Part shown: in pieces, positions 15,286 to 48,511 of the stretch
Layout of the letters: every line of letters starts with the position of its first letter
Position numbering within the stretch: the first letter of the stretch is position 1
Origin: Coptis chinensis
Taxonomy: Eukaryota > Streptophyta > Magnoliopsida > Ranunculales > Ranunculaceae
Assembly (NCBI GenBank): GCA_015680905.1
Contig: CM027379.1
Span: 91,411,501 to 91,475,500, forward strand
Reading direction: 5' to 3'
DNA length: 64,000 nt
Notes under the pieces: model-generated
Database searches by the model: none
The model's input: only the letters and a program-made list of their open reading frames with translations
Told to the model about the DNA's origin: nothing
Translations under genes and position numbers: made by a program

Positions 15286-15605
15286 TAGTTGATAAGTTTT
15301 GACAGGTTTAGTGATGAAGAAGATTGGTTGCTGCTTGGGGTTTGCGTTAGCATTTCATCTCAGATTGTGTTTTGTTTTCCCTTGAGGTGATATAGATTTT
15401 CAGTTGAGATAATATTATTTGTATTTTCATTTGTAAATTGTTTTATAATGAAGAGGACTTTGTTTAAGTTAAAATTTTTATTGGTTTTAATTATCCGCAT
15501 ATTTTAAACTGTTTATGGGCTTTTGGGAGTGGAGAGTCGTCACACCTAGATCGAAGAGTCGAGGGGACAAATAATGTTTTCAAATACTGTGAAATTAGTG
15601 TGACA

Positions 15606-16247
15606 GTCACTAAGGTCTTGAGACCCGACTTTGTCACTGTACTTTGGAAGGAGATCCCTCCTCCATTGAAGAAGCTCTCATATATTTTGATTCCGAGTTT
15701 TGGAGAGAAGTCATTCAAGTGAGATTGATTCTCTCATGGAAAACAAAACTTGGAAACTTGTTGATTTGTCTATTGGTTGTAAAACTATAGAAATCAAATG
15801 GGTTTTAAAAAGGAAGTTTAAAACCGATGGTTCAGTAGACAAGTTTTAAGGCCTGACTTGTGGTCAAGGGCTTTAAACAGAGTAAAAACTTTGATTTTTT
15901 GACACATATTCACCTGTTACACAGATAACATCCATTAGAGTATTATTTTCTATTGATGCTGTTCATAATCTTGTTATTCATTAGATGGATGTTAAGACAA
16001 CCTTTCTAATCGGGGATTTAGAAGAGGAGATTTACATGGATCAGCCAACAGGTTTCGTGGAACTAGGTAGTGGTAAAAAGGTATGCAGATTACTTAAGTC
16101 ACTTTATGGGTTGAAACAAGCACCTAAATAGTGGCATGAGAAATTTGATAACTTTATCATTACCAGTGGGTTCAAGATAAATGAAAGTGAGAAGTGCATT
16201 TATTATAAGTATTATGATGGAATATATGTGTTATCATATGCGTATAT
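15606..16247 (+). pseudogene. Copia 1 reverse transcriptase, first part
   Basis: The region starts after the solo LTR with VTKVLRPDFVT, then IDSLMENKTWKLVDL and the canonical copia block [18 protein letters not shown]. It stops where solo LTR 2 inserted, just before the YVDD catalytic motif, which continues at 19512. It is broken in several places. Confidence 0.85.
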
Positions 16248-19200
16248 TGTCACACTCTGAATTTCGACAAAATCGGAAAAAACAATATTTGTTCCCGACT
16301 CTTTGATTTTCGAGGTATGATGCACTCTCAACTTCCAAAAACCCATTATCCGATTAATTATTCCAATAATTTGAAACCAATAATTTTTTTTTAAATAAAC
16401 AAAAGTCCTCTATATTACAAAAATTCACAATTATAATTAAGTTACAAATTTCTTTCCAACAACGCTTTAATTATAATTACAACTGAAAATACAAAATATT
16501 GTCCCAACTAAAAATCTATTGCACCTTAAGAGAAAATAAAACATATTATTTAATGAGACGCTAACGCAAACCACAAGCCGCAAGCAACCTTTTTCAACAC
16601 TAATCCTATCAAGACTTATCGACTATGTTCATTTTATGAACACACCCGATAAGCAAACATGCAAATCGGGTCAACATTATAAACAATGCTGGTATGAGTA
16701 GCCCTAAAATACAAATCATATTTATACATATATATACATAATCAATAAGGCAGTTAGTTCCTCTACCGAGGTGCCTTAGCATCCAACGAATAATATAACA
16801 TTCTTAAGTACAATAATTAAGGTAGGTAGTTCCTCCACTGAGGCGCCTTAGCTTCTAATTCAATAATAATAAGACATTTAGTTCCTCCACTGAGGCACCT
16901 TAGCTTCAAACCGTACTAGATCAACTATATCTAATAATAAAATAACAAAACTAAAACTTACTCTATACTTACACTGGTGTAGGCCTGATCACAGAGTGGG
17001 CCACACCTGCATAAATAATCAATTCAACCCACCCTTCTGTAAAACCATTGTGAATGCAACATAAATTATAATAAAACAAACATATCATATACATAATTCC
17101 AATCATCTCATTAAACCAACAAGAACAATCTCAATGACCAATTTCATAACCACAATCAATCATTTATTATAGATTTAACATACACTTTGATATATCATCA
17201 CAATTATTGTTTAGAGTTTCTTCAAGTGTCTCTAGAATCACGTCGTCTCTATGTTTTACCTAGTTTCCTATCTACCACAATCGCTCCCCTCAATCGAGCC
17301 GAACATGCACATCCGCATGCCTTACTCGCATAATAGACCACACCGGCGTAGTTACCCTAAACGGAATGTCGCATACAAGGTAACCCCCACACTGACGCCA
17401 AAACTATATGAGTAAGCCTTTACTAGGCATAAAATATTGCGCGTCTCGTTCTGAATTGGCGATGAGATAATGAAAGCCATCATTTGGCTACAAGGGCTCC
17501 AAGTTCCCTTAAATTCACATTCTCTTAAAAACATCTTTCATATTTATCACAAGAGTTGTGGTAACTAGGAGCTAGGATTTTCGTTACGTAATTTATTCAA
17601 ATATCATTCATTTGTATCTCATAACCATTTCACTCTATCACGTGCATGCCAAATAAATTATTGCACTAAGCCACAATATTTAGAAATATCTCCATGCATC
17701 TCATAACAACTTTCATTCTTTCATGTGCCAAATAAAGCGTTGCACTAAGCCACAAGATTTAGAAACATTATTATATCAATACATCTCATATTTTTTTTAT
17801 TTTTATTTCACGTGCTAAATAAATAATTATACTAAACCACAAATCCTTTAGAAATATTACAAATCTCCATAACCGCTACAATAACTTTTAGTAGCATATC
17901 AAAATTAAATCTAATCATTTATTTAATTATATCATTATCAAACAACAATATAACAGAGAATAATATTTAATACATAAATTCCAACTTACAACGAAATGCC
18001 ATAATCACTCCATAAAATATTGCACAATAACTTTATAGCATTTTAACAATGTCATAATATTACACCAATAATATATGTACATTTTGATTTATGGTTAAAT
18101 AATTTCTAATCCATTTCAAACACTTTTTAAACACCAAATACATGTCTTAACACTTAATAAATTTCCCATTACAACATTTCTACACATATCACGTGCTAAC
18201 AAAATAAATATAATTTCCCATACGAAAACAACACCTAATGCATATATTATAATAAATCTGAAAATCTATCATTTATTCATTTCATCGTTAAAACAAATCG
18301 GCTAACTACTACGTACACATTTTTCTTCTCTTATTCTCTATTTTATATTATACACTGGTAGTAAGGACTATGAACTATTAATTAACTTCATGTAATTAAA
18401 TGTCAAACGAGATTGATCTCCACCATTTCATGACAATTACAACTATACACAAACTAATATTTAGCATTTCAAGTACCAATATAAAATTAAATCGTGCATC
18501 TTTGTTTCTCAATTTAATTAAATTGATAATCAACAACTAAATAAATAAATAAATAACTAATTAGTGAGGTCTACTTACTAATACAATTTTAATAATTTCC
18601 TTTTATCTATTTTACGTTATTCAACGTTAATAAGTAGTTTGCAATATTATATTTGATTCATGTAAATAAAATGTAAACCTTTATAATTACAACAACCGTT
18701 TCAAGACTATTAATTATACACTAATATTTAACATTCCAAGATACGCAACATATATTTCTTTGTTTTATAATTAATTGAATGTAATATATAGGAATCAACA
18801 ATCAAATAATTGAAATGACTAATTAGTGAGGTCTACTCACCTTTATGTTGTTGCCATCGAAAGAACAATTATATAAAATAATCTACGCCACATAAAATCC
18901 ATATCACCAAGTAATAGAAATACTCCCTTTCTTCATTATCTATTTTTTCTTTTTCCTTATTCCTTTTAATCTTCTTTTGATTTCTTTTTCTCTTTTATAT
19001 ATTTTTTTCTTTTTGTTTTGTTCTAAGTGAAACCATGTTCTTATTTAGATACAAAGAAATAAACTAAGACAATTCCATAATTTTAAATTATCTACACATT
19101 AGTTTCCTTAACAACTAAAAACTTTCCATTACTTTCCTTTGAATAAAAATTAAATTTCCATAACAATAAAATTCTCTACCATATTATCTCAACTTAATAA

Positions 19201-23752: not shown

Positions 23753-24480
23753 TCAAGCAAGAAGACCCGACGAAGTTGAACACTTCAACTTCATCTTCAC
23801 AACACCCTTACCATGACATAGACATGTCTCCGTGGTACTCCATGAATAACATAATATCCATTTTACCGCTTCCCAATGATGTTTGCCAAAGTTAGCAATA
23901 AACCTCCAAGCAACTCCTACTGCATGGGATATATCCGGGTGCGTGCAAACTATGTACCACTGCCTAGGGGCTTGTTGGAAACCATACAAGCTCTTTCTCA
24001 GTTTGCGCACCATATTTTCTCTATCCTTCCGTAGGAAACCCAACAGTTGTCACGTGTAAATCTCCTCAACATGGTCACAATAGAAGTGAGCAGTTTTCAC
24101 ATCTAACTACTTAAGATTTAAACCTTCCGCTACAACAATACTAAACACTGACTGAAAAGTATTTGGGGAGAATATCACTGCCATATATCTCTTGGAACCA
24201 TCATGTTCCTTCTTGACTCGATACACCCATTTGCTATGTAGAGTCATGTTCTTGGGTACTTTGGCCAACTCCCAAGTGACACTAGAAACGAGGGACTTCA
24301 TCTCATCGAACATAACAAGCTCCCACTTGCTAGCATCACCAACCTCCAATGCTGCATCATAGGAAAGAGGTTCACTTTCATCAGTAAATAAATAGGTGGA
24401 TGGAGGATACTACATGCTCGGTACAGTTTGCCTGGATAACCTCGTTAGTGCATGAGGTGGAGATAGACTTGGTGGCGTAG
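23753..24480 (-). pseudogene. Copia 2 reverse transcriptase region
   Basis: The minus strand shows WELVMFDEMKSLVSSVTWEL, then LAKVPKNMTLHSKWVYRVKK, the start of copia reverse transcriptase. Further on comes VRKLRKSLYGFQQAPRQWY, then the HPDISHAVGV and HWEAVKWIL motifs of the RT/RNase H boundary. The domain is decayed and shorter than a working copy. Confidence 0.8.
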
Positions 24481-25931
24481 TGTCACACCTCGAATTTTGA
24501 CAAAATCAGAAAAACAATATTTGTTCCCAACTTTTCGATTTTTGAGGTGTGATGCACTCTCAACTTCCAAAAACCCAAAAAAATTGTTTGATAAACAAAA
24601 GTCCTCTTCATTACAAAAATTAACAAATATGATTAAGTTACAAATTTCCTCTCAGCAACTCTTTAATTATAATTACAACTGAAAATACAAAATAAACATT
24701 GTCTCAATTAAAATCTATTGCACCTCAAGGGAAAACAAAATATATCCTGTAATGAGACGCTAGCGCAAACCACAAGAAGCAACCAACCTTCTTCAACACT
24801 AATCCTGTCAAGACTTATCAACTGGGTTAATTTTATGAACATACCCGATAAGCAAACATGCAAATCGGGTCAACATTATAAACAATACTGGTATGAGTAG
24901 CTCTAAAATACAAATCATACTTATACACATATATACACAATCAATAAGGCAATTAGTTCCTCCACCGAGGCGCCTTAGCTTCCAATTCAATAATAATAAG
25001 GCATTTAGTTTCTCCACTGAGGCGCCTTAGTTTCAAACCGTACTAAATCAACTACATCTAATAATAAAATAACAAAACTAAAACTTATTCTATACTTACA
25101 CTGGTGTAAGCCTATTCACAGAGTAGGTCACACCGGCATAAATAATCAATTCAACCCACCATTCTACAAAACTATTGTGAATGCAACATAACTTACAATA
25201 AATCATTTATTATAGATTTAACGTACACTTTGATAGATCATCACCATTATTGTTTAAAGTTTCTTCAAGTGTCTTTAGAATCACGTCATCTCTATGTCTT
25301 ACCTAGTTTCCCTGGCTACCACAATCGCTCCTCAACGCCGAACATGTACATCCACATGCCTCCCCTCACGTAATGAACTACTCCATGCGTAATTACCCTA
25401 CGCGGGATATCACATACCAGGTAACCCCTACACGAATGTCATTACGTGGGTACTGCCACTATTCGGCATAAAATATCACGCGTCTCGTTCTAATTTTGCG
25501 AACGAGAAAATCAAGCCACTATTCGGCTACGATTTCCCTACACATGGGTCAATCAACATCTCATACCCCTACACAAGGGCCAATCATATCACATACGCCC
25601 TTCACATGGGCCAAATCACATAAGTTGTGGTAGCTAGGTTCTAGAATTTTTTGTTACGTAATTTATTCAGGTATCATACATTTGTATCTCATAACCATCT
25701 CACTTTATCACGTGCCAAATAAATTATTGCACTAAGCCACAATCCCTTTGGGAATATCTACAAATACTATACTACCTCATCGTAGCATCTCATATATATA
25801 ACGATGAAGCATTTACATTTATTTCTCAAAAATATTGCATTTAATAGATATCCTAACACATGATATCATTTAATAGAACAATAATTACAACATACCACAT
25901 AATGTCACAATTGCTCTAATGTACCGCATAA

Positions 25932-27471
25932 TGATAAGAGCCCAAAACTGTAGTTTTAACCCTGTAACAGACATACTTTTAGACCAATTATGTGAGTAAT
26001 AATTAAGAGTTAACACCGATTCACGTGTTTTTATGCATTTCAGGGCTTCAAAGTCCATTATGTGCGAAATGTGCCACTTTAGCGAGATAAAGGAGCAAAG
26101 GTCGGTTACTAAGGAGTTCCATGATTAAAGGCCAAGATTCAAGAAGACAAAGCCTTTCTAAAGCCCGGGCCAAAAGCTGAAAAGTCGACGCGGCGTAAAA
26201 TGTTACACAAAGTCGTGAGAACTTCCGAAGGCCATATCTTTGGACTCAGACCTCGAAATGGGGCCTACCTTATGTCAAAACGACCGGCTCGGAAAGAGCT
26301 TTCCAATGGTCTAAGCCGTGATCCAATCAGAGGAGCAGAAGTGGACGAAAAGTCTGTTGAAGCCAACTGCAGCTGAAGAGGCTTTTTGAATTTGAAAAGA
26401 ATTGGGTTTTGGCCGATTCTCGGCCCAAAACATGGCTCCAAGCCCATGCACGATTTTTGGATCTGAAAGTATAAAAACAAAAGCTTAGATCTTTGTTAAA
26501 AGTAGATTTTTTAGTAGAGAATAGTAGATTTTTAGGTTAGAAAATAAAGGAGCTTAGAATAGAAAGTAGCAATTAGAATAGCTTCTAGATCTAGATTTAA
26601 TTGTTTTAATTAAGTTTAATTTCAAATCCAATTCTTGTTTTAGATTAAACTATTAGAATCATTACTCTTAATTAGTTTGATTAATAAAATAGCTAGTTGT
26701 TAAATTTCGATTATTGTCATTTACATTTGTGTTAGATCCGATTCATTTACTACTTGTTATTCAATTCTTAGTTATTAATTAGATTTTAATTATTGTTTAA
26801 TTTAGATTAGTAAATTTCAATTCTTTATATCATGTTTAGTTTAACTTTAATCGAAATGATTTAGTAATGATTCTCGGCTAAATCTCCATTAGAGGGGTTG
26901 AGAAGCCTTGATGAAAGCTTGATTCCGAACTATTGTAGAATCGCCGTAATTTTCTTTCCACTCTAGAAATGATTAGTTCACCATGAGAATGGGTTTAATC
27001 GTTCACATGCTAGTTATGAATTGGTAGGAATGCCATGTGTAATTAGGGATTAGGAAGAACCAATTGTTCTGCAAAGCAGTTCAATTCGGATTACAACGAT
27101 TCGTCGTTAATAGGATTAAGTCGAGTTAAGGTGGAATCAATCCCCCTCTAACTCCTTATCATCAAATCAATGTAGCATTCCCTTAGTTATTTTGATAACC
27201 GACTAGTTGCATCTTGTGGGTAGTTGCATCGTAGTCTAGTTGCCTTTTCGTAAATCTCTCATTAGACCTTAAGTAGAGTAATTACACGTGATAACATAGC
27301 ATGCGGAAGGACTAGGAGTGGAACGAATCACTCTACTCCACTATATCTCATAGGATTGAGAGTAGAAATCTTTGATAGAATAGGCATCATAAGCTAGTTT
27401 TAGTTTTACTTGCGTTTGTAAGTTTCATCGCTTTATTTCGTAGGTAAAACTATTAATTTTATCATTAATCA
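25932..27471 (+). repeat. Element A 5' LTR
   Basis: TGATAAGAGCCCAAAACTGT start, TTAATCA end, followed two bases later by the primer-binding site. It includes GAAAGTATAAAAACAAAAGC (26465-26484), a TATA-like promoter region conserved in the 3' LTR. Confidence 0.9.
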
Positions 27472-27473
27472 AA

Positions 27474-27492
27474 TGGCGCCGCTGCCATCTTA
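27474..27492 (+). other. Element A primer-binding site
   Basis: TGGCGCCGCTGCCATCTTA lies two bases after the LTR. The first 13 bases match the complement of the plant tRNA-Asp 3' end (TGGCGCCGTTGCC) except at one position, the primer used by Athila. The rest does not match. Elements B and C share the same site. Confidence 0.7.
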
Positions 27493-27958
27493 GTTGCACT
27501 TTTGCATTGTTTTCGTAGTGTAAATACTTTTCTTAAAAGTCCCATTTCACCCACCCACCCGTGTTTGATTCATACTGTGGCTTTCCGTTTCATCGTTGAA
27601 AAATTTCAGCGAGAAATTACACTGAAGCCCAGCCAGCTCGGAAGGAGCGCACTAGCCCTAGCTATGAACAATCGAACACCGACCACGCTACTATCTTCTA
27701 ATGACCAGCGCCCTTAGCAAATTTTTCCGGATTTCGACAGTTTTGATTCAAACTTTGATTTTTCATATTTTTCAGTGTTCTAACTTGTTATACACACTGA
27801 ACACGCGTAAACAAGACGCTATTCATAAGCTTAAGCAAGGACGCTTGTCGTTATTCCTTTCTTCTACACCTCGCGATCTCTCCGTAGAGGTTTATACTAG
27901 TATATCGAGAATTGTTTGGAGTGTTGATGTGTTTAGCTAAGTTTGGTTTTAGCCTTGT
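27493..27958 (+). other. Element A leader
   Basis: Non-coding leader between primer-binding site and gag. It carries AGCGCACTAG-type sequence in place of the clear GCGCTC tandem repeats seen in the leaders of elements B and C. Short open frames (27502-27717, 27701-27940) have no recognisable product. Confidence 0.5.
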
Positions 27959-30900
27959 ATGAGATTAAGGTCTAGCCGAACAAAACACGTAAGCGTAATT
28001 ACACAACAACGTCAACAAACAAGTCTATCTAGTATACCACCCACTACACCTCTAGCTACTATTTCACACACATCACGACACAATGCCCGGCGAAGAAGAG
28101 ACTCCTCTCGACTTCTACAAAGCCTTGAGCGATAGCCCCAAATCTTGCATCGTTCTAGTAGACCCGATTAAGGATTTCGAATCCCCCAAATATTTTAATT
28201 TGTTACCCGCTTTTCATGGATTAGACCATGAAAAACCTTATCGGCTTTACGCGTAGGGATTGAACAAGTCCTAACAAGATTCCACCATCCTACGGTTGGT
28301 GCGGAACAAATTAAACTCGGGGTATTCCCTTTCACCTTAGCCCGATAAGGCGGCGTCTTGGTTAACGCCCAAACGCCTAATTACGTGGACTCGTGGGCTA
28401 AACTTGTTCAACTGTTTATGGAACATTTTTACCCACCCCTAAAGACGGATGAGATGCTTTCCAAGATTCATTTCTTTCGACAAAATCCTCATGAATCATT
28501 TTCGTGAGGCTTGGAATCGTTTCACCGATCTCCTTATAGAGTGTCCACATCATAATTTAGCGAAAGACACGTTAGTTAGGTGCCTTTTTCAAAGGACTTC
28601 TACACCACCATAAAGAAGTCCTAGACATAATGAATGGGGTAGTTTCTTAAGTAAAGGAGCCTCGAGGCATATAAATTTTTGGAAGATCGGACTAAAGCGT
28701 AATAATAATGGGGGGTAGTGACGATTACTCCGCTCGCTAGTTCTTCTTCAACAGTTAAGGCTACCAAGATGTTTGAGGTTAAATCAGATCCCGAGCTTAA
28801 AACTCTAATTGAATCCCTCACAAAAAGGTAGAGGCCATTTCAGTACAACAAAAGCCAATCCCAATCATGAATGTAAATTCAAATCCATGTAGTTTCTGTT
28901 GGAGCCCCGAGCATCCCGACTCACACCGTCCCTATTGCCTATGAAACAGGCTTGTTCCATTAATAGTGAACCTAACCCCATGGAGACAAAATCCCAACTT
29001 CGGTTGGAGAAATAACCAAAACGCGTCACACCTCGAAGTACAATAATCAATATGTTAGGCCTACGCCGCGGCTTTAACCAAGCCCCACTACGACAAGGAC
29101 GAGGGGTCGGGGTAATTTAATAATTATAACAACCAAGTGCAACCTCGACAAGGTCAAGCACAAGGTCAAGGTAGTTATAATAATTATAATGCTAATAGAG
29201 GTATCGTTCCGGTAAATAATAACTATCAAAATCCACCCATAAATAATTCACGTGAAATAGTTCCAGTCACACCACCCGTGACTACTACACCCACACAACC
29301 GGATCGTCTTGACACCTTCATACAAGTGAGCCAAAAACTTTTCCAAACCATGGCTCAATCTAACCAACAACTTCTACAATCCGTTAATAATTTTACCCAA
29401 CAGTTGGCTCAAAATAAAGCCCAACCCAAAGGTGTGTTTTCAAGTCACGAAATACCTAATCCCAAAACAACAAATACAGCCTTTGAGGTAACCGATAATA
29501 CTAGTAAGGAACATGAAAATGTAGGTGAGCTAAAGGCCATCACCACTCTCCGTTCTGGCAGAGTGGTTGATAACAAAGTAACTATGCCTATAGTTACCCC
29601 ACCAGTAGCCCCTACACCTGCTATATTACTAGATACCGAAATAGAAACCAAAGAGCCTATCAACGTAGAGGTACCAGTTACAACACAACCTAAGAAACAG
29701 GAAGCCACGGTTAAACATCCAGGTAATACCATTGCTAAATATAAACAGAAACCGCCGTTTCCACAAAAATTAGCCGTGTTAACTAGGGATACAAATTATG
29801 AGGAGATTAGGGATGTTTTCAAGAATCTAACTATAAACCTTCCCTTCCTCGAAGCTATAAAAAAGCTACCACACCATGCTAAGTTTCTTAAGGAATTGTG
29901 TACTACTAGGCGTAAGACCAATATACCAAAAGACGCCTTTTTAACAGAACAATTCCCAACTCTATCTTAACATAATGGAATTGTTAAGTACAAGGACCAC
30001 GGTTAGCCCCATCGTATAATGCACCTTAGGAGATTCTTATCTGACGACCGCGTTATTAGACACGGGGGCTAGTGTTAACTTACTCCCGTTTTACTTGTAT
30101 AGACAAATAGGTCTAGGCGAGATGCAACCCACTAAAATGGCGTTGCAATTAGTCGATCGGTCTATTAAGTATCCTAAGGGTGTCGTCCGAAAATGTTCTC
30201 GGTAAAAATTTAGGATTTTTACTATCCGCTGATTTTGTCATCCTCGATCTGACGTCGTTAACAACTCTGTCCCGATCATCTTAGGGCGTCCCTTTTCGGC
30301 AACCCGCCAATGCGCTCATTAATTGCGCGATGGTTCAATGTCCATGTCTTTTGGCCATCTTGTTGTTGAAGTCAATGTTTTAAAACAAAGACCACGCATT
30401 ACCGATTAGTCTATGGATGGAGAGGTTAGCATGATCGAGAGCTTTGCTCGAGATTATTTCAACAACACGTTCCCGGATAATCATATACCCAAATTTCTTT
30501 CCTTTGGAAGTTCAGACTCCAACATTTCCATCCCTACACTAGTCGATACACATATTACGGATGAGGATGAGATAGATGACTTTCTCAAAGATGTAGAGGA
30601 CTATCATAGTAACGAGGATATGACCAATCTAGATGAGCTATTCGATGAGTTTCTTAGAGCAGGTGATGATTCACCCTATCAAGAACTACTTTGCACAACA
30701 TCCTCCTCGACCCCCTCCTTCCACCCTTTGAAAGGAATCTCGAGTTTGCACTCGATCCTTTTGTTTCTCTTGTGCTCCATAATTTTTTAAATCCACCTAG
30801 TAAACAAATACTTCAGAAGGACAACCCATTTGACACCTTCATTTTCAGACTTGAGACAGTCCCTACACACACAATGAATGAGTTTTGTGCTAAAACCACA

Positions 30901-31203
30901 TCCTCATTGTTTACAGGCTGTCTTTCTTTAACTTATCCATATCCACCATATTCTCCACAACCATTCACTTTTCCACACTTATTTACTAGAACACCCACTC
31001 ATTCAAAAATGAAAAAGAAGGTGCATGCTAGGTTACGTAATAGGGTTATCCGACTTCGCTTTCATTTCACTAGGTTGCGTCATAGGAAATATTGGTGCTT
31101 GATTGTGTTTGGATATGTTTTCTGTGATATTTATTTATGGAATGATCCACAACTATTTCGGTTGTTGATATATGGTAAACTGCATGTTCATACATACGTT
31201 TAG
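27959..31203 (+). pseudogene. Element A gag-protease region with conserved C-terminal domain
   Basis: It starts MRLRSSRTK, like element B's MRLRSGRRK. The capsid part shows DFYKAL.DSPKSCIVL, FNLLPAFHGLDHEKPY and the W...LVQLFMEHFYPPLKT block of Athila gag. The longest open part (29137-29970) is Q/N-rich, then LKAITTLRSGRVVD and FKNLTINLPFLEAIKKLPHH, which are Athila gag-protease linker motifs. Protease motifs follow (LLDTGASVNLLP, VILGRPF). After protease, where reverse transcriptase is expected, comes an acidic segment (DEDEIDDFLKDVEDY) and an arginine-rich, then hydrophobic, C-terminal domain ending FRLLIYGKLH. Broken in several places. Confidence 0.8.
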
Positions 31204-32150
31204 ATAAAGTCTCGAGTATCTGACTATAAATGACTCAACTTTTGTGTTTGGTGCATTTCATTTCATTTCCATATATTGGTGAGTGCACCATTAAGGTAAC
31301 CGGGCCCTCTCTATGGAGTGTGTGGCTGTAAGTACCGGATCCTAAGTCCATGTTTAAACATAATTTACGTTTTCCACTCTTGCATGTGTTCTCGGATTTT
31401 TGAGTCATGTTTCTCTATGGGGTGAATTATGTCCTTCTTGTTTATTGTTTTCTTTTTAAAATTAAAAATAAATATATATATATATATTAAAGAATAAACA
31501 TAGTAATATAGGAAGTCTCGGGAATCTGACTTTAAAAGACCCACTGCTAAAAACAAATTTTCTAAGCTTCGTTGTAAAAAATTTATTTGGGGGTGGGGTG
31601 TTCATGTTTCCGTCCTAGAATGTTTATGTCCCATTACAGTTGCTTAGGTCGTTTAATTGTATTACGATTCGGGTTGATATAATCCATGATTTTAGAGTCC
31701 AATTGTTCGCATAACGTATGTCATGCACGCACTTCGAGGCGTTTTACACTATCTTATATGTCATCCATGGTCGGAATAGAGTGTTTTATGGATCATTGGA
31801 TTGGAAATTCTCTCCTGATCATTTCCATATCTCATTCGCAAAAATCGGACCGGTAACGAAGCGGCAATTTTGATTTGAAGTTTTGCGAAAAATCGAAAAA
31901 AATCAAAAATTTCAATTTGGGCTTGGGCCCAACCCGCGCCCACCGGCAGCGCACCCGCGCCCTTACCTTAGCCCAACAGTACTTCATCTTCCACAAACCG
32001 CCATTAACGCCCAAAAGCTCCAAAACCACAAAAATTCGAATTTCGGTGCTGCCGCGCCACCACTCCACCACCACCACTGTTTGCTACAGTCGGTCGATTA
32101 AAATCCTACCACCACATCCCATTTAAACCCCCACTACATTCCAAACACCA

Positions 32151-33327
32151 ATGGCTCAACAACGCCGAATTTTGTCGGAGCAAGCTTTTACAGGCGACCA
32201 CTTTGCGCCGTTTTACGGTGACTAAATGATCAGTCGAGACTGGAATAGCTTGTGGTACTCGACTGAAGCCTATTACCACGAGGACTTAGTCCGACGGTTC
32301 TACAATACGAGGGAGTTGGAAGGGACGAGGATTTTTGTTGTGGTGGCGAAGAGGAGGAAGGAAGTGACGACCGGTTGTTAATTTGAGATTCTAGGCATCC
32401 CGCCTAGAATCCATTTGGATGTCATGTTGCAGGAGTCCCAACATAATGGGGTAGAGCCATTGATGAACGAGACAGTTATTGAAGGGAACTAAAATGCGAG
32501 GTCGCATTGTGTTCGTCAGGCTTCCCTTAGGACCAACCAGCTGGCTGCAGCTCAGTGGATTGGTCGGAACGTCCTGGGGAAGGAGAAGGTCAGCGACATC
32601 GGCCTGAACTACCTCCACATCTTATGGATACTCCAGGAGCGGAAGTATGAGTTCTGCATCTTGGAGTTTTTACTTAGCATGATTAGGGGAGTAGGGAAGT
32701 CTGTTGCACCTCTCCCTGTGTTGATAACAAAGATCATGCTGAAGTTGAGAGCAGCTCAGGCGACTGATAGGACGTACATCACCCTACACCGTAACCCTCG
32801 CATCTATAAGGAGTGTGTCCAACGGGTTTGGAGGTTGGCTGAGGATAGAGAAGAAGAAGAAGAGGCTGGTGGAGAGGAGAATGCCGAGGAGGCTGGGGGA
32901 AATCAGAATGCCTCGGAGGATGAGGAGGATTTGACTTGTTTTGATGCGGATGCCTTGGAGAGGTGTTGGTCGACGCTAAGCGCATGGCTGTGATTCATCG
33001 TGGGTACATGCGTTAAGCTCAACACCATCTGCGAAGACCTCCGGACTCGACGAGCAACGATGCATCATAACCGAGATCCGTTACCGCAGAGAGGATGAGA
33101 GGTGGGAATAGATGAGGGCCGAGCTAGAAGCTCGGCCGCCGATTCGGGAAGAGATGCTTACACGATTCCCACCTCACGGGGACTCTCCTTCTGAGGACAC
33201 ACCATCGAGGCACGAGCGTCGTCGCCGAAAGACGAATGGTGCTGGTCCATCAGGAGCTCAGGAGCAGTCTCCGGAACATGTGCCCTCCGCTACCAGTTCC
33301 GGAGTAGTTAGGGATAGCATCGGTTGA
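32151..33327 (+). pseudogene. Element A ORF2: plant-transposon-protein-like domain
   Basis: The region begins MAQQRRILSEQAFTGDHFAP and contains WNSLWYSTEAYYHEDLVRRF, a motif of the 'putative plant transposon protein' domain found in Athila-related ORFs. It continues with AQWIGRNVLGKEKVSDIG, LHILWILQERKYEFCILEFL and PLPVLITKIML, an acidic E-rich stretch (about 32850-32935) and a basic, serine- and proline-rich tail. The role is unknown; in related elements this class is uncharacterised. It is flanked by its own leader and a downstream purine tract (33495-33507). Element B carries the counterpart. Broken. Confidence 0.65.
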
Positions 33328-34158
33328 TGTTTTTATATTTAATTGTAGTTTGATTATTGTTATTTATTTTAATGTAAGTTTTATGTCCGTAATTTGAATT
33401 TTTTGTAGTGAAATGTACTTCAAATGAAAATTTTAATATAATGGGTTATTTTCATTATGCGTGGTTGTTTAATATTGATCCCACCTTCCCAACTTGTTTG
33501 GGGGTGATTTTACCTATTCCAGCATGATTTTTATATAACCCTCATGTTAGAATTTATTGCGAAGTCAAGGTGAAAATATGGCCGTTTAGGCATATATATG
33601 AATAAGTATCATGGTAGGATGAAATCTCAATTAAATAGGTACACTCTATCATAAAATTAACCTTAAAGATACTAGGTTTGAATTAGAATCAAGAAAATGA
33701 GTTGTTTCCGTTTTCGGGTTTGGAAATTTTAGAATTTCTGGAAACTGCTGTAAATACTTTTGGCAACTTCCCGATCCGTTTTAGCAACTTAAAACCTATA
33801 TAAACTTCATATATTCTACACTCACAACTCACACTACACCTAAACTCCATCACTCACCTTTCACTCCCACGATTCCCACGTGTCGGCTCATTTTCCGAGT
33901 TTCATCAACTCCGAAGCAAGACTCAAGGCTTCTACAGAGCGCTTTCGCTTCTCAGTATTTTTTCACATTTTTGTCGAGTGCACTTTCGCTTTTAGATTTG
34001 CTGAGCGACCAGCTCAAACACTGGAAATTCCAATACTCAGAGCGCTTTCAGCTCAATCGAGAGCGCTTTCGCCATACGACTCGTGGACCAGAAAATTTCC
34101 GGTTTTCTCACGGGTAGTATATCGGATCATTCGCAGCTATTCCAGGCGTAATTTTGAG

Positions 34159-35074
34159 ATGACATCTCCAACACCGATACCGAACAGTCTTTCAAGATTT
34201 GTTCCAAAGCACTACTTATGGTGCTTGGTTTCACGAGGCGATCACATCGTTGGTAGGGAGCCACTTATGGTAAGACCCGATGCACTTTATTCTCCAACAC
34301 TAGCATCTTATTTTTATGATAACTGCATTTTTTTCTTTGAAAGACCGGATGGAGAACAAGTTGTTCTCCATCAACATTGATAATGAACCAATGGAAATTA
34401 CCGGTTCTTGCTATCATTTGTTCTTGGACTTGCTATGCCCATTTGAAATACAAGACCCATGGTGCTATTGGGTAGATAATATGTATGTCTACACTTACGA
34501 GTTCTTGCATGAGTCGTACGGCGCAGGCATTTTCCGTATCGAGGACCAAGGGGACTATAACGTCGCTTTTGGTAGCCTGTCCATGAACATAGGAACTGTT
34601 ATGTTTTGGATCATGCTAAATATTTTAGGGGAATGGCGTTTTTCTTCTGTGAATGATGCCACTTGCAGCGTTTTCCTTGCTTTAGCCACGGGACGTATGT
34701 GTCATGACCTTCCCCGAACCTTGATGTCTAGTTTAGCTCGATCCCATAGCATGAGGCATAAGTTCCTTCTTATGCCCGTTCTAGTTTCCCGTATTATGCT
34801 ATGTTTCTTTCCTGTTTTTTGTACACGTTTCACGGATTGGATTACGGTCGACACGGTACGACCCACCAATAGTATTATTCGATCCTTCCGTGCAATGACT
34901 TGGCAAGGGTGGAGGATACAACCTCATCAGGTTGCACCCTACACCCCATCAGACCAAGTGGCTCTTAATAGGTTAGCAATAATAGATGATAAATGGCGGG
35001 AAGCCTGGCAAATTATCATGGCATGGCAGGATGCAAATGAACCTCACTTCTTTATGGAAGAAGAGGATGAGTAA
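34159..35074 (+). pseudogene. Element A ORF3: paralogue of ORF2, function unknown
   Basis: ORF3 begins MTSPTPIPNSLSRFVPKHYL. It carries L..P..LYSPTLASYFYDN, the pattern seen in ORF2 (L..S...YY.EDLVRRFY), and later LLMPVLVSRIMLCFF against ORF2's PLPVLITKIML. A helical-looking region with IEDQGDYNVAFG and several aromatic-rich segments lies between. The C-terminus is acidic (FMEEEDE). It has its own leader with repeated GAGCGCTTTC motifs (about 33937-34075). I know no named family for it. Element B has a decayed counterpart; element C lacks it. Broken. Confidence 0.6.
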
Positions 35075-36881
35075 TGCGGGAGATAAGGTAAGTTTTCATT
35101 CTAGTTAGTGACTGCTTATGTCCCAAGCAATTTCATTCTTGTTAACCCCATAATGGGTAGAACTCGTATAGAGTTGCGTCAGTTTTTATTTCCTATATTA
35201 GTACGTTCTAACTTTGTTTTGCAGATATCCCTGAATTTCACGCGTTTCAAAGGTATTTTTCCTACCCTCTTTATTTAAATGCTTTGAGGACAACGATTCT
35301 TGTTTTGGGGCATAGAAACACGTGTAATTAAGGCATCTGTTAGGATATAGATAGAGTTAATATGCATTTGTTTTCTAGTTAAAATTTTAAAAATTCAAAA
35401 ATATAAATAAATAAGTTCATGCTATACACTTAGGAATAGTGGTATTGTTTTCCTTCTCTATGCTCTTAACAATCTAGAAATCTCAATGTAGCTTTTGCAT
35501 CGAATAATTTTTAGAAACATAGGTTAATATATAGGTAATAATCTTTGCATCTATTTATAAATATATTACATGAGTGTCGATGATTGTTAGCAGTAAGTTT
35601 CTGAAATCTAGGCTAGAGTACTTATTCTACAAATCCTGTGAGAATATAGCCTAAAGCCTTATCTGAGCGAAACATTTGAGAAATGACACAAGGGTGAAGT
35701 AAAATCCGGATAGAGATATCACATGTCCACTTGCTTGATCACTAAACCATATCCTAAGCGAGAATTTAGGCCCTCTTTGGATCGATATAGCCAGAAATTC
35801 AAACCTATGAATTATTTTCCGCTAGTCGCCCCTCTGAGCCTTTCTTTAGCCTTTCATAAACCACAAATTCTTTACCCTGTTACAAAATAAAAATAAAAAT
35901 AATAACAATAATATTCAACCTACCCAATTAAGATAAGTCTGAGAATAGAATGAGGAAGAAAGAAGAAGAGAAAAACCTGTGTAAACAAAAGTTAGTTAAT
36001 TGCTTCAGAAAATAAAGAAAAGAAGTTTCCATCCAAAGAAAAGAAAAATAAAAACTCCAAAAAAAAAAAGAATAAAAGGGAGTCAAAAGCCAAAGTAAAG
36101 AAAAAGAAAAAAAATATGGCTAAGGATGGAAACAAAGTATAGAAGCAAAAGAAAATAACAAGGTTTTCTCTAAGTTACATAATATGAAGACTCTATTATC
36201 TCAGACTTGTTCTTTTGAATATCCATTTCCTTCCTTCTTAAACCATCTCCTAATCCCCGCAACACCTAATAAAGACCTCTAGCTCAATTAGGAATATGTT
36301 AGTGTGATAGTAAGTGGCAGATGTGTTTGATCGACTCCGGCTTCCTTGTTGTCATTGAGATTGTAAGGTAAAGTATGCCCACTGCAAGACTAGAGTAAGC
36401 TTAAACTTGAGTGGAAAAATCAGAGTGTTGGATCTTGACTATTATTGTGAGAACCTACTTAAGGACGCTATTCCGAGTTTCAGAAACGGACCTGCTATTG
36501 CATTTCATAGTATTACTCATTGTATATATATTTATTGTAGATGATTGATTATTATGCATATATTAGCTTAGGTTTCGACTTGATTACTCTATATACATTG
36601 CTAATGAGAGGTATAGATAATTTGGAGCATGAATAAGGAAACAATAGTTTTATTTCTTAGTCGTTGTAGTATAGATGAAGTTTGTGAGTACCTTCACTGG
36701 AAAACTCTAACGAGGCTATAACTCGTCCACTAGGGAATTCCTAGTGGTTTAAGGCCTTGTTGCATATGGTCAATGCAATCGCACTCAGCGAAACGAGAGT
36801 AGTTAGAACTCTATTTTTGGTCACTTATTCTAATTTCTCATCTTTGCTTGAGGACAAACAAAATGCTGTTTGGGGGTGGTT
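35075..36881 (+). other. Element A 3' non-coding region and polypurine tract
   Basis: About 1.8 kb without recognisable coding. It includes A-rich, polypurine-like DNA (36000-36120) and ends in TGTTTGGGGGTGGTT (36867-36881), the plus-strand primer tract directly before the LTR. Conserved blocks (for example TAGGCCCTCTTTGGATCGAT near 35768) recur in elements B and C, so the region is under some family-wide constraint or is of recent common descent. Confidence 0.7.
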
Positions 36882-38424
36882 TGATAAGAGCCCAAAACTG
36901 TAGTTTTAACCCTCAGAAATGACATACTTTTAGACCAATTATGTGAGTAATAATTAAGAGTTAACACGATTCACGTGTTTTATGCATTTCGTGCTTCAAA
37001 GTTCATTATGTGCGAGAAATGTGCCACTTTAGCGAGATAAAGGAGCAAAGGTCGGTTACTAAGGAGTTCCGTGATTAAAGGCCAAGATTCAAGAAGACAA
37101 AGCCTTTCTAAAGCTCGGTCAAAAGCTGAAAAGTCGACTCGGGCAGAAACAGCACACAAAGTCAACAGAACTTCCGAAGGCGATATCTTTGGACTCAGAC
37201 CTCGGAATGGGGCCTACCTTATGTCAAAACGACCGGCTCGGAAAGAGCTTTCCAATGGTCTAAGCCGTGATCTAATCAGAGGAGCAGAAGTGGACAAAAC
37301 GTCTGTTGAATCCAACTGCAGCTGAAGAGGCCTTTTTGGACTGAAAGAATTGGGTTTTGGGCCTGATTCTCTGGCCCAAAACATGGCTCCAAGCCCATGC
37401 ACGATTTTTGGATCTGAAAGTATAAAAACAAAAGCTTAGCTCTTTGTTAAAAGTAGATTTTTTAGTAGAGAATAGTAGATTTTTAGGTTAGAAAATAAAG
37501 GAGCTTAGAATAGAAAGTAGCCATTAGAATAGCTTCTAGATCTAGATTTAATTGTTTTAATTAAGTTTAATTTCAAATCCAATTCTTGTTTTAGATTAAA
37601 CTATTAGAATCATTACTCTTAATTAGTTTGATTAATAAAATAGCTAGTTGTTAAATTTTGATTCTTGTCATTTACATTTGTGTTAGATATGATTCATTTA
37701 CTACTTGTTATTCAATTCTTAGTTATTAATTAGATTTTAATTATTGTTTAATTTAGATTAGTAAATTTAAATTCTTTATATCATGTTTAGTTTAACTTTA
37801 ATCGGAAATGATTGCGTAATGATTCTCGGCTAAATCTCCATTAGAGGGGGTTGAGAAGCCTTGATGAAAGCTTGATTCCGACTATCGTAGAATCGTCGTA
37901 ATTTCCTTTCCACTCTAGAAACGATTAGTTCACCATGAGAATGGGTTTAATCGTTCACATGCTAGTTATGAATTGGTAGGAATGCCATGTGTAATTAGGG
38001 ATTAGGAAGAACCAATTGTTCTCGCTGGCGAGTTCAATTCGGATTACTGACGATTAAATCGTTAATAGGATTAAGTTGAGTTAAGGTGGAATCAATCCCC
38101 CTCTAACTCCTTATCATCAAATCAATGTAGCATTCCCTTAGTTATTTTGATAACCGACTAGTTGCATCTTGTGGGTAGTTGCATCGTAGTCTAGTTGCCT
38201 TTTCGTAAATCTCTCATTAGACCTTAAGTAGAGTAATTACACGTGATAACACAGCATGCGGAAGGACTAGGAGTGGAACGAATCACTCTACTCCACTATA
38301 TCTCATAGGATTGAGAGTAGAAATCTTTGATAAACATATAGGATCATAAGATAGTTTAGTTTACTTACGTTTTGAGTTTCATCGTTCATTTCGTAGGTAA
38401 ACTATTCAATTTTATCATTAATCA
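36882..38424 (+). repeat. Element A 3' LTR
   Basis: Same ends as the 5' LTR and nearly the same length (1543 against 1540 bp). Followed by target duplication CATAA. Confidence 0.9.
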
Positions 38425-38735
38425 CATAACATTTTTATAGAGTTTTAGGAATATTATATCTCCTAAAATTTCAATCTCATCACGTGTCAAAAATTGCACA
38501 ATATCAACGTCAAATCTGTCTTAGATAATGACAAACCAGTTTATACAGGCTTCCACAACATTCTACCATTGGATTAGTCCATAATATTTAATATATAAAA
38601 AGTAACGCAATTAAACAATCAACAGTCAACAGTCAAAGCCCAAAAGTTTAAACAACTTAAAGACTCAATTGGACCTATTTTAAATCATATGGACCCAGCC
38701 CAAACAAAAATAGAACTCGCCGAAACAAAATAAAC

Positions 38736-40106: not shown

Positions 40107-41634
40107 TCTCCTCATCTGAGTCACTACTATCATCATCTGACTATGGAACTTCCACAACATCTCGACTTATATCAAAGTCTTCCAACTCAACATACTCAAT
40201 GTCACTCTCTGTAACCGGCTCCGTGGGTTGTGCTTCATTTCTGTCCTTGTACAAAACCATCTCATTGAACATGACATCTCTGCTTTAAATAACTTTCCTA
40301 TTTTGGTCATCCCAAAAACGATAACCAAAATCATCGTCGCCATATCCAATGAAAATACACTTGACATCAAGCTTACTCATAGCTTGGTCACTAGTGTGCA
40401 CATATGACACACACCCAAACACTCTCAAATGAGAAAGGTTCACATCTTTCCCACTCCATACTTCCTATGGAATCTTGAAATCCAAAGGTATTGATGGTCC
40501 TTGGTTGATTAGGTAATTAAGCTGCTGTGCTAACACTCTTTGCCCAGAATTGCTTAGGCAAGCCTGCTAGTGTACGCATACACCTAGCCCTATCTGTCAG
40601 TGTTCTAATCATCCGCTTTGCGACCCCATTCTTCTTAGGTGTCCCTCGCAAAGTCTTTTCTATCTTGATGCCACTGTTAGCACAATACTTCTCAAAACCT
40701 GAATCAACATACTCTTCACTATTATCGGATCTCAGCTTTTTCACCTTGAAGCATGTCTCATTATCAACCCTGGTCTTCCATGTCTTAAACACTTCCAATA
40801 CCTCGGATTTGTGTCTCAAGAAATAGACCAACACCTTCCTCGTATGGTCATCAATGAAAGTCACAAAATATAATTTTCTGCCAAGTGAAGAGATATTAGC
40901 TGGCCCCCAGACATCTGTATGAATCAACTCAAGCTTCTTAGCTTCCAAAGTTTAACCCATCTCTGAAAACTCACCCTTCTTTGCTTTCCAAACATGCAAT
41001 TCTCGCAGAAGTCAAAGTTCATTGACTCTAACGGGAGTTTACCAGTGGAGTGAATGATTTGCATTCCTTTCTCACTTATGTGACCAAGTCTGCAGTGCCA
41101 AACATTCAGATCCTCTTTGCCATTTGCCACAATAATCGACCCACACCCGTGTGCGGTCATGTAGAGAGTACCATCCTTGTCGCCTTTATCGACTATTAGT
41201 GATCTTTTAGAGACTTTCCAAGTATCCATCATGAAGATTATAACAAATCCTTCACTAACCAATTGACCCACCGAAATCAAATTCTTCCTCAAATCCGGAA
41301 CGTGTCGAACATCCATCAATAACCATGTCTTATCTTTCCACTTGACACAGACATCACCTTTGCCAACAATGGCACAAGATTGGTCATCACCAAGAAAGAC
41401 CTTTCCAAGGTCACCTTTGGTGTAGTTCTCAAAGAACTCTCGATTTGAGGTCACGTGGAATGATACACCGGAATCTAAAACCTAAGACTCCTTGTTGTTC
41501 TCCATCGAACATATTAATGCATCATCTTCCACTTCAACTACATTAGCTTCTTGATTCTTTTTGTAGTTGTCATTCCTTGGTGCTTGACATCGGTTACTAT
41601 AGTGATCAGGCAAACCACAAATGTAACAAATAAT
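40107..41634 (-). pseudogene. Copia 2 integrase, GAG-pre-integrase and zinc knuckle
   Basis: Read on the minus strand from the right: a CCHC knuckle, CYICGLPDHYSNRC; a protease-like stretch, SCAIVGKGDVCVKWKDKTWL; GAG-pre-integrase LNVWHCRLGHISEKGMQII; then the integrase core with LIHTDVWGPANISSLG, YFVTFIDDHTRKVLVYFL and KKLRSDNSEEY. Further left are the acidic linker and the solo LTR insertion. The order gag-PR-IN before RT is copia-type. Moderately preserved, broken in several places. Confidence 0.85.
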
Positions 41635-43269: not shown

Positions 43270-44853
43270 TGATAAGTGCCCAAAACTATAGTTTTAACCC
43301 CTTAAAAATATTACTTTTAGACCAATTATGTGATTAATAAGTAAGAGTTAGTACTGTTATCGTGTTCTTATGTATTTTAGGCATTAGAGTCGAATACGTG
43401 CAGAAATGTGTCCCTTTTGCGAGATAAAGAAGCAAAGGTTGGTTGCTAAGAAGTTCTATAATTAAAAGACAAGATTCAAGGAGAAAAAGCCTTTTTAAAG
43501 CCAGGTCAAAGCTGAAAAGTCAAAGTCAACGCGGGCAGAAATAGCGCACAAAAGTCAGCTGAACTTCCGAAGGCTGTATCTTTGAATTCAGACCTCGGAA
43601 TTGGGTCTGCCTTACGTCAAAACGACCGGCTCAGAAAGAGATTTCTAATGGTCTAAGCCTTGACCCAATCAAAGGAGTAAAAGTGGACTAAAAGGCTGTT
43701 GAAGTCATTTCCAGCTGAAAACCCCTATTGTGGACTGAAGTAATGAGGTTTTGGGCTCGATTTTTCGACCCAAAACATGGCTCCTCAGCCCATGCACGAA
43801 TTTGTGGATCTTGTCTCCTTTATTTGAAGAGAGAAAGACTTAGCTCTTAAGGATACTTAGTTTTTAGTTAGTGAGAATCTAATAGTTAGTTTTTTTTACT
43901 TAGCTTTACTTAGGCTAGATCCAAATAGTTAGTTTTATCTAGTTATTTTTCATAGATTCAGTTTGTAGAACCAATAATTTATTGTTTATCTAGTGAATTA
44001 TCAATAAATTAGTTAGAACAATAATTTTAGTTTTTGGAATCCATTACTTAGTTCATTTCATTTAGTTTGTCTTAAATTGATAATTAGTTATTCATAATTT
44101 TAGTTTTAAATATTGTTCATTTAATTCATTTTGAATATTAGACTATTGTTAAATTAGATCAATAAAGTTAATTACTTATTTAATAATGACTTGTTTTGAT
44201 TGTTCTTGTGTTGGGAATGATAGTCCAATGAATCAAAGCTAAACTTCCATTAGAGGGAGGTTAATGAAGCTTTGAGAGGACTTGATTTGTTGATTAAGGT
44301 TTAAAGTTTCGATTTTTCTTGACTTAGAGATAAGAAGAGAAAAATCTAAACTAGAGGATTGTGAGTTTTGCCATGAGAATGGAAAACAAACCTTCCTCTC
44401 ATGCTAATTTGATTATGACTAGAGATGGTATAATTGAATTAGGGATCATAAAAGTCTAAGATTTATATTTAACCTTTTAGTGAGAATATAAAGATTAGGG
44501 TTTCTTAACAATCTATTCTAACACTTCTAGGAATTGAAAAGTAGATTTAATTCTCTCTCTAACATTCTCTATCTTTGATTCACATCATTATATTGTTAGT
44601 TAATTTAGTATAAATTCGTAGTATCATCATAATAGTTAATTTCTTATTTAAATCATTACTCTCATCATTGTTCCTTTTGTTTGATTAGTTGAATTCTATT
44701 TATGTCTTCATAGTTTATGAGTGGAACGAATCCGTATTCTTTATATATTGCATAATGAATTGAGAGTAGGAATATTGATTAAGCACTTATTTAGTTAATT
44801 GATTATTTGTGTTTACGCATAGATAGTTAATTTACACGTAAATTTGTCTTTAT
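43270..44853 (+). repeat. Element C 5' LTR
   Basis: 1584 bp, TGATAAGTGCCCAAAACTAT start and CTTTATCA end. It aligns along its length with the LTRs of A and B but is clearly more diverged from them than their own pairs are. It is followed two bases later by the primer-binding site (44856-44874), with the same TGGCGCCGCTGCC core. Confidence 0.9.
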
Positions 44854-45710
44854 CAAATGGCGCCGCTGCCATCTTAAACTCTTTCAGGACAAGAATTCAA
44901 TTGCTTGAATCCAAGGGGCAATCCCCCATTCTCAATCCACCCACCCTTTCAATTTTTCATTCTTATTTCTTGTATTTTCGGTACTGTTCACTGTTTTAGG
45001 CATAGGGCTGCGGATTCACAGAGTAAAGCACTGCAGTAAAGGTATTTGTAAATTTTGAAAAATTCGGAAAATTTATAGGCATAATCCTTAAGGTGTTATT
45101 GATTTATTGTAATTGTTTCATATTTTTCCTAGTTGTTTTATTAAGTGAACTAATACGATCTTTACAGTACTGCATTTCAGTTTTCAAACCGTAAGTTCTT
45201 GAAAAATAGACGAGTATGGTTTCTTTAAGTAGTTTCAAAACATTTAAATTTTTTAGAGTATCTATCATAAGTCAAGAGTTTTCAGTAAAAATTTGACGAG
45301 TTATTGATTTGTTTTGACCACCTAACTAGTGGATTATTTTCAGTGTGTTTCTGCAGTTTTACAAACACTTAATTTTTGGAACACCAGCCAATAAGGAGAG
45401 TTTGTAGAACTCCAATTGCTCTAAAACTTTTATAGGAACACGTCCAATATGTCAGGAGTCTTCAGTAAAGTTTTGGCGATTTTGGGCTCTGTTTTGATTG
45501 GTTAACCATTCAGTTGTTTGTATTGTGTCCGAAAACTGTTTCACAAACTTTGAAGGGCAGTAGAAGGACTTTCATAGCTCCGATTGATCTGAAAATTTAC
45601 AGACTACTTGATAGATGTCTTAGCAAACTACTGTAAAAATTACAAATTTTTTGGAGCAAGATAAAATTACTAGACATTGCCAAAGGCAAGAGCGCGACCT
45701 GCACCCGTGT

Positions 45711-45888
45711 CAGGCAAATTCTGAGTGCCCCCTGCGCTCAACTCACTGGAAATTGCCTCCGCACGAGCATGACATGCGCCTTTCACAGGCAAATTCTGAG
45801 CGCCCCCCGCACTCAACTCACTGGAAATCACCTCAGGCACGAGCGTGACCTGCCCCCTTCACAGGCAAATTCAGAGCGCACCCCTCGC
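45711..45888 (+). repeat. Leader tandem repeat of element C
   Basis: Units begin CAGGCAAATTCTGAG at 45711, 45786 and 45862 (period 75-76 bp), rich in GAGCG/GCGCTC and GCGCC. It lies in the leader between primer-binding site and gag. Element B has an equivalent array of 77-bp units at the same place. Confidence 0.85.
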
Positions 45889-46151
45889 CCTCTTCTGAAT
45901 AGCCCGATCTTCACAGGTTAGTACAAAGTTCCACTTCTGCAAGTTATTAAGTGTTTCTAACTTGTTAAATACATTGAGCTCGCGTATACAAGATGCTATT
46001 CATAAGCATAGCAAGGAGGCATTCATGTACTCCTTCTTACACTCCTCACCTCTTCTGTCAGAGGAGTTTCAATTCTATATAATCAGGCTTGTTTTTTTGT
46101 AGACGCAATATCACATGCCTATCTAAAATTTCACACACTACACCTGTATCA

Positions 46152-46998
46152 ATGGCTAAAGAACCAGAGACACCTCTCTATGATTTTTATAAAGCACTAA
46201 ACGATAGCCCTAAGTCGTGCAACGTTCTTGCAGACCTAGTGGGGGATTTTCGAATTCCCCTGAATATATTTAACTTGTTACCAGTTTTCTATGGTTTAGC
46301 CCACGAGAAGCATTATCAATATATGCATAGGAAAGAACAAGTTCTCACTACATTCCATCATCCTAGCGTAAGTCCGGATCAAGTTAAACTTAGGGTGTTT
46401 CTATTCACCCTAGCCGACAAGGCGGCGTCTTGGTTAACTGCCCAAACGCCAAACTTTGTGGACTCATGGGCTAATCTTGTTCAATTGTTCATGGAACGGT
46501 TTTACCCACCACTGAAGACCGATGAAATTCTTCAAAAGATTCATTTCTTCCACCAAAACCCTCATGAATCCTTTTCAGAGGCCTGGAACCGTTTCACTGA
46601 TTTTCTCATAGAATGTCCGCATCACAAGCTTGCAAAAGACACGCTTGTTCATGCTTTCTTCAAGGGGCTTTCACATTATCATAAAGAGGTTCTAGATATC
46701 ATGACTGGGGGTAGTTTTCTTAGTAAAGGAGCCTTGGTGGCTTATAAATTCTTAGAATATCAATCTAAGAGGAACAACAATTGGGGAGGTAACGACTCTT
46801 CCCGCTCCACTCCTTCTTCTAAGGTTAAACTTGATCCCAAGCTTAAAACTCTTATCGATGTCCTCACTAAAAAGGTAGATGCCATATCTATTAAACAACA
46901 ACCCACTCTTGTCATGAACATTAAATCTACTCGTTGTAATGTCTGTTTTAGTCTTGAGCATTTCGACTTCTATTGTCCTCTTGTTTATGCACAACCAC
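46152..46998 (+). pseudogene. Element C gag, N-terminal part
   Basis: From MAKEPETPLYDFYKALND the capsid reads ILFNLLPVFYGLAHEKHYQY-like motifs, LFTLADKAASWLTAQTPN and LVQLFMERFYPPLKT, then HESFSEAWNRFTDFLIECPH, all Athila-type gag. A cysteine-rich stretch (C.VCFSLEHFDFYCP) resembles a degenerate zinc finger and is shared with B (C.FCLSPEHPDSYCP). The host gene is then interrupted by element B. This is the best-preserved gag N-terminal part of the three elements. Confidence 0.85.
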
Positions 46999-48496: not shown

Positions 48497-48511
48497 AACC
48501 ACCCCCAAACA

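Follow-up and report, generated by a model that had tools for sequence, protein, structure and literature searches.

A 64,000-nucleotide stretch of the Coptis chinensis genome (GenBank assembly GCA_015680905.1, contig CM027379.1, forward-strand positions 91,411,501 to 91,475,500; hereafter the window) contains three long terminal repeat (LTR) retrotransposons, here called A, B, and C. They very likely belong to a large and old set of semi-autonomous Athila (Ty3/gypsy) elements in which a short module, X, has replaced pol, and which probably depend on a helper. A (25932-38424, + strand) and B (46999-60433, − strand, nested in C) are complete insertions. X is a coding segment of about 0.7 kb that fills the interval between the protease region and open reading frame (ORF) 2 in A and B, and part of it is also present in C; the first-pass annotation of this DNA had missed this module.

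The replacement was defined by comparison with pol-bearing copies from the same genome. One of these, read separately as two adjoining stretches (L043 and L044), has the order gag remnant, protease region, reverse transcriptase (RT), RNase H, integrase (INT), ORF2, ORF3, purine tract, and LTR; Pfam names RVT_1, RNase H, and rve on L043 (E-values of 8.7e-18, 2e-31, and 1.5e-15, respectively). A second copy, L045, carries a primer-binding site (PBS) and runs from gag through ORF2, its sequenced stretch stopping ahead of ORF3. L043/L044 and A are 69-81% identical in shared blocks. Homology between L043 and A ends at offset 4585 of A (L043 5102) and restarts at 5301 (L043 8167); with B it ends at 4653 (L043 5099) and restarts at 5335 (L043 8175). 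Relative to L043, about 3.07 kb of RT-RNase H-INT sequence is gone from A and B, and 0.68-0.72 kb of other sequence (X) stands instead, its right edge within a few bases of the pol stop codon. X occupies 30517-31231 (+) in A, with 64% amino acid (aa) identity to B by tblastn, and 55105-55784 (−) in B, where it lies in frame after the protease region in a 391-aa ORF (55065-56240). Downstream, A retains ORF2 in two frames (32382-33300, +; tblastn 48% aa, 1e-64; homologue after INT in L043 and L045) and an open ORF3 of 256 aa (34304-35074, +; 53% aa to its homologue in L044). In B, tblastn located ORF2 in pieces at 52137-53855 (−) and a broken ORF3 at 50349-51076 (−). The two ORFs had been regarded as genes added to the family; because both sit downstream of INT in pol-bearing relatives, they are inherited.

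Pol itself was not detected. With L043 supplying the RT, RNase H, and INT query proteins, tblastn found no match at E ≤ 0.01 in A, B, or either part of C, nor at any of the 19 loci that carry X (A, B, the 3' part of C, L039-L042, which are four of the 40 scored places of the junction search described below, and L046-L057, 2.6-kb pieces hand-picked for variety). In a control set (L009-L038, 30 loci chosen beforehand by an RT motif), tblastn recovered RT in 30, RNase H in 29, and INT in 28. A Pfam search of ten stop-free pieces of A and B returned one match above the cut-off, to gag. The absence of recognizable polymerase genes from A and B, as first annotated, was thus upheld, and RT or INT remnants at the protease-ORF2 junction, to which the first-pass annotation had pointed as contrary evidence, did not appear at any of the 19 X-bearing loci.

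Gene order is the same in A and B, and the family amplified in this form. A query from A covering the end of gag, the protease region, and the junction was searched against the genome in a design that favours pol-less copies; among the 40 matches scored of 10,572 candidates, 37, including A itself, ran end to end (position 1 to at least 2201 of 2207) over a genomic span close to that of the query, and none of the 40 was split in two pieces around a pol-sized gap. A search with the A LTR was scored for 40 of 12,323 candidates; each match covered at least 1,516 of 1,543 positions, with 92-95% identity (the query itself aside), and five same-strand pairs, A included, lay 10.95-11.2 kb apart. Genome-wide motif counts were 5,272 for RT (backward control, 0), 6,292 for X (backward control, 14), and 2,578 for INT; the RT and X counts are just roughly comparable, since the patterns are unequal in degeneracy. 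Upstream of 29 ORF3-motif matches in the first 32.8 Mb of contig C1, we found X in 13 cases, RT in 3, both in 0, and neither in 13, using exact degenerate motifs that miss decayed copies. The X-to-ORF3 distances in C1 fell into two sets, 3.4-3.7 kb (9/13) and 1.3-2.1 kb (4/13), which perhaps represent X-type elements with and without ORF2.

Assignment to Athila is based on the LTRs, a 5-bp target-site duplication (TSD), a PBS starting TGGCGC, a purine tract, and ORFs between pol and the 3' LTR, the last seen in the pol-bearing relative. The protease region of A, B, and C also aligns with that of loci fetched by the RT motif EVFMDDF, which we take to be of Athila type. A PBS of the TGGCGC kind matches tRNA-Asp (PMC9744471; this and the other papers are cited from excerpts throughout). 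The signals acting in cis are shared with the pol-bearing copies: the PBS of A (TGGCGCCGCTGCC; 27474-27498, +) is identical to that of L045 over 25 nt, and the polypurine tract of A (GGGGGTGGTT; 36872-36881, +) and the first 18 LTR bases are common to A, B, and L044. The primer site initially described as shared by A and B is of the same type in both, but B is one base off, within the first 13.

A and B are independent insertions, as the first-pass annotation had it, and have LTR start, gag, protease region, ORF2, ORF3, and purine tract in common. A is flanked by the TSD CATAA (25927-25931 and 38425-38429), with a 5' LTR (TGATAA...TTAATCA) of 1,540 bp at 25932-27471 (+) and a 3' LTR of 1,543 bp at 36882-38424 (+). 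Its gag remnant (28080-28932, +) is frame-shifted, matching C's gag by tblastn (43% aa, 3e-42) as overlapping pieces in different frames. Protease-region homology follows at 30119-30514 (+; 57% aa to L043). B is flanked by ACCAC (46994-46998 and 60434-60438), with the 3' LTR at 46999-48496 (−), the 5' LTR at 58936-60433 (−), gag at 57345-58254 (−; tblastn, with Pfam Retrotrans_gag, PF03732, in a 177-aa piece at 2.7e-6), and protease-region homology at 55785-56180 (−; 76% aa to L043). The 5' part of C (43270-46998, +) comprises an LTR start, a leader, and an open gag (46089-46997; PF03732 at 8.1e-17); its 3' part resumes after B at 60439 and continues past the window end at 64000 (+), with the protease region at 61571-61858 and the X piece at 62132-62422. 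The putative protease is called from its homology to the corresponding region in the pol-bearing copies, together with LDTGAS in A (30020-30205), presumably the protease motif; Pfam returned no protease match. Identity between A and B is 74% in the LTRs and about 69-79% across aligned internal blocks. Kimura two-parameter distances between LTRs were 0.058 for A and 0.052 for B, equivalent to insertion ages of about 2-4 million years that depend on the rate chosen; two further LTR-dating rates were considered besides 1.5e-8. The latter was taken from PMC2410132.

We aligned 13 stop-free X pieces from the 19 loci (alignment A1; A, C, L040, L051, L052, and L057 were left out). Their layout comprises a linker rich in proline and serine, a segment resembling PFQRNLEFAL, a run of basic sequence in most rows, and a tail in which DPQLFRL..Y is invariant in 13 of 13 rows; this invariance is partly built in, the motif having been used to fetch several of the rows. 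X had no match in Pfam, none among 16 in BFVD by Foldseek at E ≤ 0.001, and none confirmed among 8 pattern matches in IMG/VR; the letters DPQLFRLL returned 0 matches in paper text. AlphaFold modelled X at a mean confidence (pLDDT) of 53 and a pTM of 0.21. In a check for a possible transmembrane segment, the highest mean Kyte-Doolittle hydropathy over 19 residues was 1.64-1.73 in three rows of the zinc-knuckle class described below and 0.63-1.36 in the other ten X rows, as compared with 1.74 in the protease and 2.17 in ORF3. PF03078 gave 0 matches in the source genome, in a search where the control too gave none. An origin of X as part of ORF2 or ORF3 was considered and not found (hhalign of A1 with ORF alignments A2 and A3, from which rows with stops were left out: E of 0.32 and 0.15); ORF2 against ORF3, in alignments of 3-4 rows, gave an E of 0.006 at a probability of 6%. 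A piece of A comprising the protease end plus linker matched the linker of pol-bearing L030 at 27% over 109 aa with a low score, and the match disappeared when the linker was searched alone (best E 3.5). Ten residues of the tail, YFWKDPQLFR, are similar to YFWDDPYLFK, which lies near the beginning of Athila INT (7/10 residues, E 1.7); the tail may be what is left of the lost integrase, but the likeness is at chance level given that 46 of 100 shuffled tails also produced an integrase match at E ≤ 2. As a variant feature X is both real and shared, though unexplained.

Substitution patterns show X to be coding, though weakly so, and under weak purifying selection. Ratios of non-synonymous to synonymous divergence (dN/dS) between A and B were 0.37 for gag, 0.42 for the protease, 0.24 for ORF2, 0.35 for ORF3, and 0.53 for X. 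For 19 of 21 chosen X pairs, dN was below dS in at least 95% of bootstraps, and the median ratio for X was 0.50 (range 0.27-2.8) across 133 finite pairs, some of them near copies; all ratios derive from tblastn alignments, which lean to protein likeness and in which frame-shifted pieces inflate some values. Synonymous divergence between A and B varied by module: 0.39 in X, 0.71 in the protease, 0.97 in ORF3, 0.98 in gag, and 1.65 in ORF2. Between B and L056 it was 0.13 in X and 0.91 in the protease. On a protease tree (L016, which has the same place as L043, and the short L019 and L047 were dropped), 12 X rows fell in two places, a marginal result (approximately unbiased test, p 0.044; one long branch, L054), and a single origin of the X rows is compatible with the well-supported branches. 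Because X is so much less diverged than the other modules between A and B, and because X rows occupy two places on the tree, modules have probably been exchanged between elements. The mosaic is most simply accounted for by template switching among RNAs packaged together; the low synonymous distance of X could alternatively reflect constraint on its nucleotide sequence. That pol was lost before A and B inserted, as first suggested, is likely, although module exchange complicates the order of events.

A further reduced class keeps X behind zinc knuckles. The L046 element has its own LTR starts, PBS, and polypurine tract, both LTRs having been traced, and keeps knuckles, X, and ORF3. An ORF starts with Met just ahead of three zinc-knuckle repeats and breaks into overlapping open pieces before X, with ORF3 downstream of X. 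Neither protease, ORF2, RT, nor INT was detected in this element, and no gag capsid either, the best match for the latter having an E of 5.9 and lying in the leader. Its X is 32% identical in aa to that of B (1.6e-17), though the DNA hardly aligns. L048 and L053 show the knuckle-then-X order as well, in 2.6-kb pieces whose 5' ends are not established, with X 28-29% identical to that of B; dN/dS for X between L046 and L048 was 0.32. L051 has a short X match only. At L060 (3577-3999), the zinc-knuckle unit PSPCSCCGSP.HWASQCPSYQE is present in three tandem copies. The duplication is in frame and affects a nucleocapsid-like motif, and no capsid was detected in the element.

The mechanism we favour is as follows. 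The short X module has taken the place of RT-RNase H-INT as a fusion to the end of Gag-protease; what the element retains from pol-bearing relatives is gag, protease, ORF2, ORF3, the primer site, the purine tract, and the LTR ends. Most likely the element contributes its RNA, and perhaps also Gag and protease of its own, to particles whose RT and integrase come from a helper, namely pol-bearing Athilas in this genome that match it in primer site, purine tract, and LTR ends; we infer mobilization in trans by these relatives from the shared sequences. Co-packaging would allow template switching and hence module swaps, which could explain the mosaic history. As a guess, X, with a tail that is basic and, at low confidence, modelled as helical, might bind a helper component or RNA. 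Several observations weigh against this account. The search for an autonomous partner recovered a PBS identical to that of A in L045, but A's LTRs are just about 80% identical to those of L044 (over 0.5 kb) and about 70% to those of L045 (over 1.2 kb), so no closely matched partner is shown. The ORFs of A are mostly broken, A and B being fossils roughly 2-4 million years old. For X, mismatches by codon position (0.18/0.14/0.21) have a weak third-position excess, as compared with 0.15/0.11/0.34 in the protease, 0.21/0.17/0.49 in ORF2, and a flat 0.18/0.19/0.19 in the spacer after X; indels were multiples of 3 in just 11 of 43 cases, most breaking the frame; and of the 40 best X copies, 18 lacked stops, no more than the 25-51% that neutral decay gives.

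The codon-position, indel, and stop-free figures favour a reading of X as degenerate filler, or as a cis-acting RNA segment (e.g., for packaging), captured when pol was lost, with its coding signal a relic. The low divergence of both X and the following spacer, the poor AlphaFold model, and the integrase-like tail, albeit at chance level, point the same way. Against it are the 19 of 21 X pairs with dN below dS, the protein-level match across divergent classes (L046 with B, and the L046-L048 ratio), and the tail motif of alignment A1, whose rows are biased by the choice of stop-free and, for several, motif-fetched pieces; on balance we consider this reading possible but somewhat unlikely. Less probable is a stronger role for X, as a parasite-specific protein that replaces Pol, brings element RNA or Gag to the helper's RT and integrase, and moves as a cassette between Athila lineages, defining a class of freeloaders; the integrase-like stretch in the tail lowers it slightly. 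X might instead be an old module of an unsampled pol-bearing Athila lineage, merely kept by pol-less elements, and 28 of the 30 pol-bearing elements searched were read just within 1.5 kb each side of the RT motif (the other two were followed past INT). X was in none of those 30, however (best E 1.7); X-RT motif pairs within 12 kb numbered 12 against 7.4 expected, with 3 on the same strand and no repeated spacing; and none of the 29 ORF3 matches had X and RT both upstream, which leaves such a lineage doubtful. Pol-bearing relatives are abundant in the genome, as recent and separate loss of pol from each copy would allow. A and B nevertheless have near-matching breakpoints and the same replacement, found also in C, despite their divergence; with the X-bearing loci free of pol matches and 37 of 40 scored junctions continuous (in a search favouring pol-less copies), separate loss is refuted for the copies examined and highly improbable overall.

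Other repeats lie around these elements. Just upstream of A is an older LTR-like repeat pair (16245-17694 and 24478-25762, 75-77% match), with an inverted relative at 14376-15580; an ORF of RT locus L034 matches this pair at 16248-16376 and 24510-24626. Short tandem duplications with units of about 180-230 bp occur at 1344-1810 and 5135-5913. Pol remnants are present outside A and B at 40517-41454 (−; Pol_BBD, gag_pre-integrs, rve) and 11104-12093 (+; SH3_retrovirus); both are matched by an ORF of RT locus L005 and are presumably Copia-type.

TR-GAG elements are LTR elements with gag as the only coding region and no pol. A and B are like them in having gag without pol, a resemblance drawn already in the first-pass annotation, but beside gag they also carry a protease region, X, ORF2, and ORF3. 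The type of family to which A, B, and C belong, pol-less Athilas with gag and variously protease or env, is already known in print (2008; 2017/2021). Of 11 gag-defined Athila families in Arabidopsis, 4 have pol (Marco and Marin 2008, PMC2410132), and the pol-less ones show purifying selection on gag or gag plus env and recombination between families (PMC2410132). In these respects they are like A, B, and C; the excerpt describes no replacement module in place of pol, whereas A, B, and C have X. Sabrina and WHAM of wheat and barley encode Gag-protease without RT or INT (PMC5738225, PMC9744471), are placed in the Athila clade (PMC5738225), and share PBS and LTR ends with a pol-bearing partner, sharing on which the case for trans-mobilization in wheat partly rests (PMC9744471); some Sabrina variants carry replacement segments (PMC5738225, PMC9744471). 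A, B, and C resemble RLG_Sabrina_SA and RLG_WHAM in encoding Gag and protease without RT or INT, in high copy (40 matches scored of 12,323 LTR and of 10,572 junction candidates), and in having cis ends in common with a pol-bearing family (PBS with L045; polypurine tract and LTR start with L044). They differ in that Sabrina variants have the whole Gag-Pro gene replaced, whereas in A and B RT-RNase H-INT alone is replaced, by one module across subfamilies, and in that homology to the partner is minimal in Sabrina/WHAM but extensive in A and B. No X-like module is mentioned for Sabrina/WHAM in the excerpts of PMC5738225 and PMC9744471, nor is X described in those of PMC7264820, PMC10881000, and PMC11963269; within this partial literature coverage, a shared replacement module for RT-INT and the survival of X with zinc knuckles were not found in print.

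Pol-less Athilas have been known since 2008, and the role of their remaining genes is a standing question. ORF2 and ORF3 require no parasite-specific explanation. X, so far found only in pol-less elements, where it sits at the position of the missing enzymes, and retained by one element or more in which capsid and protease are gone as well, would give that question a concrete target.

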